From Cymodocea nodosa (taxonomy: Eukaryota > Streptophyta > Magnoliopsida > Alismatales > Cymodoceaceae): a stretch of 64,000 bases of DNA. Each line of letters starts with the position of its first letter. Within the stretch, counting starts at the first letter, position 1. The DNA lies in assembly GCA_036874045.1 (NCBI GenBank), contig CM072339.1:9059501-9123500 (forward strand), given 5' to 3'. Under the pieces are notes generated by a model that worked only from the letters and a program-made list of their open reading frames with translations, made no database searches and had not been told where the DNA came from. Shown one piece after another: positions 8,520 to 11,270 of this stretch. The position numbers and the translations under genes were made by a program.

Positions 8520-10335
8520 TGTTAGAACCTGAGTATTTTGATAATGCAAAACCTATGTGAGGAGACATATTGTATTTCACAGTTAAGTCTGTACTACATT
8601 AGATCATAAGGCTGTTAGAACAAATTCCAAGCAGACAAACAGATCGAGAAGGTTCCAGATATACTACTTTCAAGTTACAAGAAAATCAGACAGTTACAGG
8701 ACCAACTATCCGAAGAGTAAAACAGCAGCAAATCCATTGGACAGTTAGAAGGATAACTATCTGATTTTACAAAGTCTTCGGAGAGTTATTTAATTAGATA
8801 GTTAAGTTAGTTGAATGATCGGAGAGTTATGGAGTTAACTATTCAAAAGAAAAAGGAAAATCGGAAAGTTAGAAAGGCTAACTATCCGAAACTTAAGTCA
8901 TTCAATTAACCATGAGTAGAAATTCAGAACAGAAGCTTAAAAGATTTTTTGGAGAGTTAGGAAGATAACTATCCAACTTTTTCGGTAAGTTACATGTATA
9001 ACTTTCTAGAACTTAAGTTATCCTATTATGCACGTGCAGAATGGAGAAGCCGGCAGTTGAAAGCTTAAAAGGGAAAATCGGAGAGTTAGATAACTATCCG
9101 AATTTTCAAAGAGAGTTTCGATAAGTTACAGTTTAACTATCCAAAACTTAAGTTATTGAAATTGCCACGTGCAGAATTCCAGAAAGAAGATCATTTAAGG
9201 TTTTCGGAGAGTTAGAAAGAGAACTATCCGAAATCTCAAGAGAGTTTCGGTCACTTACGGTTTAACCATCCAAAACTTAAGTCAGTGAATTTCCCACGTG
9301 CAAAATTCCAGACAGATGTTCAAATGGGTTTTCGGAGAGTTAGAAAGATAACTATCTGAAAAATGGAAAGGTTTCGGTGAGTTAAATTATTAACTATCCG
9401 AAACTTAAGTTATGATTTTATGCACGTGAAGATTTGAAGGGATAGCTGTTAGAGACTTAAATGAAAGTTCGGAGAGTTATAGTAGTTAACTATCCAAAAG
9501 TCAGGAGCTCTTTTTGGTAAGTTAAATACAAGACTCTGAACACTTGACATTATACGTGAGCAACTTAAAATCCTCATGTGACTCAGATAATAGAATATGA
9601 GTGATGAATCGATAAGTAATGGATGCTTTTCGGAAAGTTATTTTATAACCATCTGAAAGCTTGAGATTTTTGGAAGGTTACTTACTGAACATCAGACAGA
9701 ATGGTAACTTACCATATTTAGGTCTGATTATTTTCCAAGTACAGCAGAATACATCCATTGAAAGAAAAATTATGATCATTATACCTTTGGTATAAATATG
9801 AGGAGTTTGAGAGAAGAAAAGATAGAGATAACGTATATACCACATACAGTGAGCTACACTTCAACTCCAATTACACTCAAGTCTGCAAATAGTCAAGCTT
9901 ATTCAAAAGATCTACTACAGAAAAAGCTCTGTGCGCCAAAACTCTGATTGAAAGATTCAAGCTGTTGGTTCGTGGCTTCAACCTGAAAGCTACATTTAGT
10001 TGTTGGTTTGAGTTTCGACTTGAAAACTCTAGAGGTTGGTTTATTGAAGTTTATACCTGAAAACATCTGTGTTGTTGGTTCTTGCTTTGACTTGAAAGCA
10101 AGTGTGTAAGTTTTGAAACACTTAGTGAAGCCCAAGTGAATCTTGGGGGTGGACTAGCCAAGTTGGTGAACCACCTAAAACTTACTATGTGTTATCTTTC
10201 TTTACTACTTTACATTTGTTCAATTTCATCTCATTTCATTTCTATTCAATCATTTGATTCAACAATCAAAAGAATATAAAAAATTACATACATTCACCAT
10301 TCACCCCCCCTCTAGTGAGTGTATCGATCCTAACA
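8520..10335 (+). repeat. 3' LTR of element B (complete)
   Basis: 1816 bases, beginning TGTTAGAACC and ending GATCCTAACA, so with TG..CA ends. It has a hairpin minisatellite at about 8700-9690, a TATA box at 9791, and a C-rich end ATTCACCCCCCCTC similar to those of LTR families C and D. Confidence 0.93.
8700..9690 (+). repeat. Hairpin/G-box minisatellite in LTR B
   Basis: About fifteen imperfect hairpins of the form CGGAGAGTTA-(4 to 10 bases)-TAACTATCCGAA lie in about 1 kb (for example 8862, 9078, 9204, 9333, 9374, 9470). They alternate with CTTAAG and with CACGTG boxes at 9031, 9166, 9295 and 9423, giving a repeat period of 128-135 bases. Order in the element sense is hairpins, ACTTAAG, CACGTG. 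CACGTG is the G-box core bound by plant bZIP and bHLH factors. Confidence 0.88.
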
Positions 10336-10439
10336 GGATTAGGTATCTAAATAGATAGAAGCTATTCCTACAAAAACTAATGACAACAAAGTGATAATAC
10401 ATTTTATAAGAACTAATATAATTACCAAATTTGGAATAC
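10336..10439 (+). pseudogene. Scrap of Athila-like integrase
   Basis: About 100 bases match the integrase of G2 near 37013-37118 and of G1 near 16593-16695 (encoding [20 protein letters not shown] sequence). It lies between the 3' LTR of B and the 5' LTR of G1, so it is probably the remainder of an older Athila-like copy used as a target. Confidence 0.8.
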
Positions 10440-10619
10440 TGTTTAGAATGAAAAAGTGCATATTATTAACGGTTAAATGATGGTTAATTGCATAATATTT
10501 AGCTTATCATATGAGAATTAAGCTATTATGTTATAATTGCACTGTTATATGCTTTAATTGAAGAATCTGTTTAATTTTGAGGAATTAATGTCAATTTTGT
10601 ACATTTCTGAACTGTCGGT

Positions 10620-11270
10620 AAATTGCAAGCTGTGAAATTCTTAAGTTTTTGAATTTTTTGATATTTCAAACAGTTATGTTTAACATACCGAACATATTTT
10701 GGACAGTTATGTTTAGCAGACCGAATATGTCGGATAGTTATGTTTATATTGTCGAATAGTTATGTTTTGAAAGAATATTTTATTATTTCCAGAAGTACAC
10801 GTGTCGAAACCATAATGCATGACTTAAGTGAACTTTCGGTGAGTTATCTCTAACTATCCGAAATTGCAGTTGGGCATCGGACAGTTATACTTGTAACCCT
10901 CCGAAATCTCTTTTTATTTTATAAAATAGCTATGGACACGTGTCATGTTTTGGTAAAGTGACTTAAGTGGATTTTCGGTGAGTTAGCTGTAACTATCTGA
11001 AATGCATCTGAGCATCGGATAGTTAGACCTGTAACCCTCCGAAATGGATATTTTATTATTAAACTGCTGCTGACACGTGTCGAGATCTGATAGCTTTACT
11101 TAAGTTATATATCTGTGAGTTAGCTGTAACTATCCGAAATGTTTCTAAGCATCGGATAGTTAATTTTATAAGTATCCGAAATGCACCTAAGCATCGGATA
11201 GTTAAGTTTATGCACGTGTTTTATAGTTAAATCAATGAAGAAAGTCCATTGAGTTATCTGTAACTCCACG
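10620..11270 (+). repeat. 137-139 bp G-box/hairpin minisatellite in LTR G1
   Basis: CACGTG boxes lie at 10798, 10937, 11074 and 11213, spaced 139, 137 and 139 bases. Each unit reads CACGTG, about 20 bases, ACTTAAG, then two hairpins such as GGTGAGTTATC..TAACTATCCGAA and TCGGATAGTTA..GTAACCCTCCGAA. A second hairpin class, CCATTGAGTTA..TAACTCCACGG, ends the array near 11250-11270. Confidence 0.9.

Follow-up and report, generated by a model that had tools for sequence, protein, structure and literature searches.

A candidate U3 cassette common to Ty1/copia Sirevirus and Ty3/gypsy Athila-like LTRs in Cymodocea nodosa

The window, by which we mean the whole 64-kb stretch of DNA analyzed here (C7:9059501-9123500), is a nest of LTR retrotransposons as judged by self-comparison and Pfam matches; the genome-wide searches described below covered 374.6 Mb in 28 contigs. 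The 3′ LTR of a copia element, B, lies on the forward strand at 8520-10335 (TGTTAGAACC...GATCCTAACA). A PPT of Sirevirus type, GGGGGAGATTGTTAG, is exact at 8511, and the LTR begins directly at its TG. The attachment-linked PPT used to recognize Sireviruses (...GGGGGAGATTG/TGTTAG) is thereby present at 8511 without a mismatch, and the Sirevirus attachment site AT/TG is among the features described in PMC2829016. The 5′ LTR copy is truncated (2813-4015), with 93.9% identity between 2813-4027 and 9133-10350. The body of B matches rve and SH3_retrovirus in Pfam, and its Ty1/copia polymerase at 6638-8115 is 68% identical to the RVT_2 region at 25574-24098; the last ORF piece, taken alone, gives no Pfam match. 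Its PPT and body domains place B among the Ty1/copia Sireviruses. About 90 bases before the start of the truncated 5′ LTR, a run of G (ggggggggcgggggg, ~2710-2726) interrupts an AT-rich region and is possibly an assembly or repair scar.

The neighboring LTR, G1, spans 10440-12647 (+) and belongs to a Ty3/gypsy Athila-like element. Its start is common to 33723 and 60677 in the self-comparison, and its end is inferred from the PBS at 12655. This PBS, which we take to be the tRNA-Asp type PBS of Athila, carries four mismatches here and is exact in two other copies (L012 and L026). ORFs at 14293-16733 match RVT_1, RT_RNaseH, Integrase_H2C2, and rve, which is the gypsy order of RT, RNase H, and integrase. 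These domains assign G1 to Ty3/gypsy, and the label Athila-like is based on the PBS and the layout. ORFs at the env position follow the integrase, and those at 17685-18179, 17036-17497 (-), and 38940-39437 have no Pfam match. Box clusters, to which no strand is assigned, lie on both sides of these ORFs: one at 16795-16880 (TCCGTTGAGTTA...TAACTCAACGA), between integrase and the env-position ORFs, with a counterpart at 38248-38337, and one beyond them at 19712-19882, with a counterpart near 41284-41363. Three further Athila-type LTRs lie on the forward strand: a partial G1-type copy with 3.9 array units (33723-34651), a piece at 51014-51369, and a fourth LTR at 60677-62670 whose right side reads GTTAAG-N11-CACGTG. 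The piece at 51014-51369 holds a two-sided unit (51209-51351), CACGTG-N19-CTTAAG-box-box-CTTAAG-N11-CATGTG. Between copia B and G1, at 10337-10439, are 102-103 bp of gypsy integrase sequence, 95% identical to 37009-37110 and 89% to 16590-16692; G1 was therefore probably inserted within another gypsy element.

The other Sireviruses of the window are C and D. One LTR of C (44063-45823, -) matches two sister LTRs at 20030-21614 (-) and 29645-31220 (-, from self-comparison) except for a 184-base Athila-type cassette at 45003-45186 (-), which is inverted relative to the C LTR sense. The sister at 20030 carries CACGTG-N12-CTTAAG and TAACTTAACGAG boxes, and its PPT at 21623 (-) has two mismatches. 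The D LTR (54767-55998, +; PPT exact at 54758) contains CGAATAGTTA-type boxes and one CACGTG. Within it, 54891-54937 is a 17-bp tandem repeat of TTTCGAATAGTTAAAGT, another variant of the half-box.

Hairpins of TAACTNNCCGAA, G-boxes, and CTTAAG recur in both the copia LTR B and the gypsy LTR G1. All eight G-boxes listed in a first-pass annotation of the window are present, with CACGTG at 9031, 9166, 9295, and 9423 in B (steps of 135, 129, and 128) and at 10798, 10937, 11074, and 11213 in G1 (steps of 139, 137, and 139); the window holds 40 CACGTG in total, whereas 100 shuffles average 2.28 and never exceed 6. ACTTAAG occurs at 8891, 9011, 9146, 9275, and 9403 in B and at 10822, 10961, and 11098 in G1. 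The proposal of one ACTTAAG per unit is right as to these positions but applies to only three of the four G1 G-boxes, the last having no CTTAAG after it. Likewise, the AGTTA...TAACT hairpins are real and many end in CCGAA as described, but several end in CTGAA, CCAA, or similar, so that a count of two CCGAA-ending hairpins per unit holds only approximately. The opposite order of the two arrays stands: B is built of box-box-CTTAAG-N13-CACGTG units (8734-9540, +) and G1 of CACGTG-N19-CTTAAG-box-box units (10670-11270, +), the spacer between the hexamers, 13 in B and 19 in G1, being absent from the earlier description. Each array lies upstream of a TATA-like sequence, at 251-1057 bp from TATAAA at 9791 in B and at 166-766 bp from TATAAA at 11436 in G1.

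How far the likeness between B and G1 extends was measured with four units of the one B LTR and three of the one G1 LTR, using column permutations that preserve the relatedness of the units. When CACGTG and CTTAAG are kept in place, the control suggested in the first-pass annotation, the observed score is reached by 0 of 500 permutations in both orientations, which supports a unit that a Sirevirus LTR shares with an Athila-like one over and above the hexamers. When the hairpins are also kept, the score of the reversed comparison is reached by 218/500 (local) and 94/500 (global) permutations and that of the direct comparison by 88/500 and 42/500. With the hairpins fixed, the spacers align no better than permuted ones, and the resemblance of B to G1 is therefore one of motifs. 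The spacer resemblance previously offered as evidence is not significant (B against reversed G1 spacers, p = 0.139), and this pair by itself is insufficient to establish homology. Nor can it fix the orientation, since each hairpin is close to a palindrome. We accordingly reject the pair as a demonstration of inversion, the reversed comparison being hardly better than the direct one; the suggested inversion instead draws indirect support from the family profiles described below.

Comparison of B with Athila more broadly gives a similar picture. In a whole-region control the spacer score is reached by 132/150 (sense) and 30/150 (antisense) permutations, and in a profile control the antisense score is reached by 7, 23, 112, and 58 of 200, which is not significant in most controls. 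B may match the right-hand part of the two-sided Athila unit directly: the spacers give p = 0.0013, uncorrected and one of 15 comparisons, but the whole-region sense score is ordinary, as noted; among nine comparisons of right with reversed left spacers the lowest p is 0.0465 (B-E). The two-sidedness of the Athila unit at 51209-51351 blurs the B-Athila comparison.

The C cassette resembles Athila in its spacers as well. Athila 34271-34389 and cassette 45029-45146 are 71% identical, and with spacers included the cassette scores 64 against the best-matching Athila unit, compared with 36.0 and 36.9 under permutation (0/2000 each); the units of this test were chosen by BLAST, while the profile and whole-region controls re-select. 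Against an Athila profile the cassette scores 44.5 bits, compared with a null of 15.8 (0/200), and the spacer test gives 0/4000 (15 comparisons, uncorrected). Homology between the C cassette and Athila is thus well supported at the level of sequence. Beyond the motifs, neither B (90/200) nor E, a family introduced below (12/200), relates clearly to the C cassette in the profile control. The ordinary C array, which lacks the cassette, scores at most 8.7 bits against Athila or B and nothing against E, so C's own boxes share the half-site only.

This cassette-bearing form of C is spread through the genome. Among 4072 candidates in the genome, the 40 with the best scores, one being the window itself and the other 39 matching at 95-96%, all cover both cassette and C flanks; 38 of these 40 best-scored places align over the full 401 bases, and they fall on many contigs. 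Two of them lie 11.4 kb apart on contig C5 in the same direction, like the two LTRs of one element. Since the 40 best places span cassette and C flanks alike, a copia element has carried the Athila-type cassette through the genome. Eight of nine C LTRs that span the cassette site lack it, namely the sisters at 20030 and 29645 and six others. In copies without the cassette, the gap between the C flanks ranges from 0 to 66 bases (window 20918-20996; L010, L012, L016, L019, L020, and L028), as if the number of a 32-bp repeat varied exactly at the cassette site of the subfamily.

A second copia family, E, came from one of the genome samples (L019), in which an extra LTR with the 19-base spacing twice lies within a C LTR at ~5085-6670. 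E forms a family, with 87-100% identity among the 40 scored of 1519 candidates, the L019 copy included. Its copy on contig C15 matches RVT_2 and SH3_retrovirus and has a Sirevirus PPT adjoining the LTR; the E PPT is exact in L034 and L039 and has one mismatch in L040 (3032). RVT_2, SH3_retrovirus, and the Sirevirus-type PPT identify E as a Ty1/copia Sirevirus. Nine of the 11 E loci (L030-L040, L030 being the L019 copy) have at least one exact 19-spaced pair in the LTR, in LTR sense; the exceptions are L037, with no such pair, and L039, whose sole pair is outside the aligned LTR.

A piece of E aligns with an Athila LTR over 135 bp at 67%, in the same sense. In a whole-region control with three E and four Athila sequences, in which spacers were permuted and the best region re-selected, the mean best local score is 65.4; permuting one or the other side lowers it to 47.2 (sd 3.3) or 58.0 (sd 2.4), and 0/150 permutations reach it in either case. 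The antisense score is ordinary (reached by 122/150 and 110/150), and the maximum for a single pair is reached by 3/150 and 4/150 permutations. The spacer test gives p = 0.0013 for Athila-E and 0.0008 for E-C cassette (15 comparisons, uncorrected), and a coarser profile control gives 52, 13, 143, and 92 of 200, without significance. Homology of E and Athila in the same sense is therefore graded as likely.

Orientation was compared across families with profiles of six B, three Athila, and 11 E pieces and one C cassette, expressed as median bits sense/antisense. E to Athila gives 50.3/7.5 and Athila to E 36.0/7.2, whereas E to B gives 14.9/36.8 and B to E 15.5/31.8. The C cassette scores 7.1/44.5 from Athila, 10.9/22.5 from E, and 18.1/3.5 from B. 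Athila to B (28.8/47.0) and B to Athila (36.3/42.6) are less one-sided. These values place Athila and E in one orientation and B and the C cassette in the opposite one. The antisense likeness of B and E extends beyond the motifs (3, 0, 6, and 3 of 200 in the profile control and 5/150 in the whole-region control), with the maximum single pair reached by 96/150. B matches E inverted, which supports the inversion indirectly.

The window contains 68 copies of the half-site TAACTNN[AC]CGA[AG], whereas 40 shuffles average 0.40 and hold at most 2; this excess is partly circular because the pattern was derived from the same window. Fifty-nine of these half-sites are in LTR pieces (two in the C cassette), seven in the Athila env-position region, and two elsewhere; window interval 45824-49776 and the stretches marked as the B, C, and G1 bodies contain none. 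As an independent check, 19 spaced 10-kb genome samples (190 kb) contain 91 half-sites in 31 clusters. Fifteen of these clusters have their best match in Athila LTRs, four in the Athila env-position region, and two in the 3′ part of Athila (short matches); the remainder comprise six Sirevirus C, one B, and one E LTR, and two matching window interval 55999-58069. The half-site is absent from eight of the 19 samples, seven of which also lack an RT or integrase match, the eighth (L029) containing a divergent copia RT. RT or integrase matches reach at least 60% identity to Sirevirus or Athila queries in eight samples and 33% in L029, so that this one divergent sample, without a half-site, tests specificity only weakly.

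Exact CACGTG and CTTAAG at most 60 bases apart form 23 pairs in the window and samples (254 kb), with spacers of 19 (13 pairs), 13 (7), 12 (2), and 11 (1), against 0.084 expected per length. Genome-wide, there are 12,705 copies of CACGTG-N19-CTTAAG and 21 of a backward control, compared with 45 and 27 for CACGTG-N16-CTTAAG; because thousands of copies reflect transposition, such counts do not demonstrate a constraint on spacing. The 19-base spacing is common to the Athila, E, and C cassettes.

We favor the reading, at a probability of roughly 0.64, that one U3 enhancer cassette has been exchanged between Ty1/copia Sirevirus and Ty3/gypsy Athila-like LTRs. Related sequence in both superfamilies is firm for the C cassette and likely for E. 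The three options left by the first-pass annotation, homology, convergence, or a shared host-factor constraint, thus divide: homology is well supported between C cassette and Athila and likely between E and Athila, and the B-Athila likeness would be either old homology or shared constraint. The ancestral cassette may have combined a G-box, CTTAAG, and palindromic TAACTNNCCGAA boxes akin to the palindromic boxes of Sireviruses; it lies in the same sense in E and inverted in the C subfamily, its orientation in B is probably inverted too, and it would have been tandemly amplified in G1 and B. Plant LTR enhancers are usually located upstream of TATA-type promoter sites, and G-boxes are read by bZIP or bHLH proteins. 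The most likely role of the arrays is that of an enhancer read by host factors in either orientation: putative host DNA-binding proteins would read the cassette regardless of its direction, and the palindrome may be bound by a dimer. Inverted copies, and nesting such as that of E inside C, suggest exchange at the DNA level, so that the inverted copies would stem from nested insertion, deletion, and repair and not from template switching between sense RNAs. A wider proposal, which we hold tentatively and at somewhat less than even odds, is that U3 enhancer cassettes pass between the copia and gypsy LTRs of this genome in either orientation, as a stock open to both, with separate promoter and polymerase histories, and that two abundant lineages may share one host expression programme.

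Convergence would have the two superfamilies evolve the same host-factor sites independently, with motifs and grammar alone in common. The B-G1 pair fits this description, its likeness consisting wholly of CACGTG, CTTAAG, and hairpins, as does the lack of significance for E-Athila in the profile control; moreover, Sirevirus RM boxes with a CGG-CCG core recur in distant hosts according to PMC2829016. Against convergence stand the spacer-level likeness of the C cassette to Athila (0/2000 and 0/200) and of E to Athila (0/150 twice) and the identical 19-base spacing in the Athila, E, and C cassettes, and we consider it unlikely, if still deserving of weight. A narrower objection is that the stretch at 45003-45186 is filler DNA acquired by chance within a single damaged LTR and is uninformative on families. 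The C LTRs without the cassette would agree with this, but the 39 further genome places with cassette and C flanks at 95-96%, on many contigs and twice within 11.4 kb on C5, rule it out, and we give filler DNA almost no credence.

The palindromes may also act as RNA or small-RNA structures, in hairpin transcripts or as siRNA sources, instead of as protein-binding sites, a reading compatible with exchange. All six units tested fold better as RNA than shuffled sequences do (z from -3.1 to -6.2), and maize Sirevirus palindromes are small-RNA mapping hotspots in PMC5311732. Against it, the TATA-like site is downstream of the arrays, and a transcript from that promoter would include them only via the 3′ LTR or read-through, and hairpins leave the G-box and CTTAAG unexplained; an RNA role in place of protein binding is, in our judgment, improbable. 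Returning to cassette exchange, LTR regulatory modules are usually thought to evolve inside one lineage. If the cassette is homologous across Ty1/copia and Ty3/gypsy, an element can adopt the expression niche that an unrelated competitor occupies, which could explain how two lineages became abundant together. The role of Sirevirus palindromes also becomes testable, with one type of box on two unrelated backbones and in both orientations.

That palindrome clusters are known in Sirevirus LTRs, as the first-pass annotation stated, agrees with the descriptions in PMC2829016 and PMC5311732. PMC2829016 describes RM boxes as palindromes built around a CGG-CCG core; they are repeated in the upper LTR half, where they precede the promoter region, and in ENV-bearing Sireviruses they also occur in the linker before ENV; RM is there called Sirevirus-specific within a Ty1/copia set. 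Similarly, B has repeated palindromic CGG-CCG boxes in its LTR upstream of the promoter, and the Osr9 box TTTTCGGACWTRTCCGAAAA given in PMC2829016 is close to the B box. The placement before ENV has a parallel in the Athila-like element, where clusters of the TAACTCAACGA half-site palindrome lie on either side of the env-position ORFs. In the titles and abstract openings searched, mostly of non-subscription literature, no palindromic unit common to Sirevirus and Athila appears, and the available portions of PMC1838419, on a modular U3, and PMC4029996, on Del LTRs, make no mention of exchange between superfamilies. In the Tnt1 superfamily, U3 is a module whose evolution is separate from that of the coding region (PMC1838419), a case described there for related copia elements within Solanaceae, whereas the sharing here is across superfamilies. 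The palindrome clusters of the maize Sireviruses Ji, Opie, and Giepum are fast-evolving hotspots of small-RNA mapping (PMC5311732); the portions of that account available to us report them from copia only and describe neither a gypsy counterpart nor a composite with G-box and CTTAAG. In contrast to the exclusivity of Sirevirus RM, the same boxes here occur in the Ty3/gypsy LTR G1, with variants around the env-position ORFs, and they carry AGTTA/TAACT arms within a composite unit with a G-box and CTTAAG.
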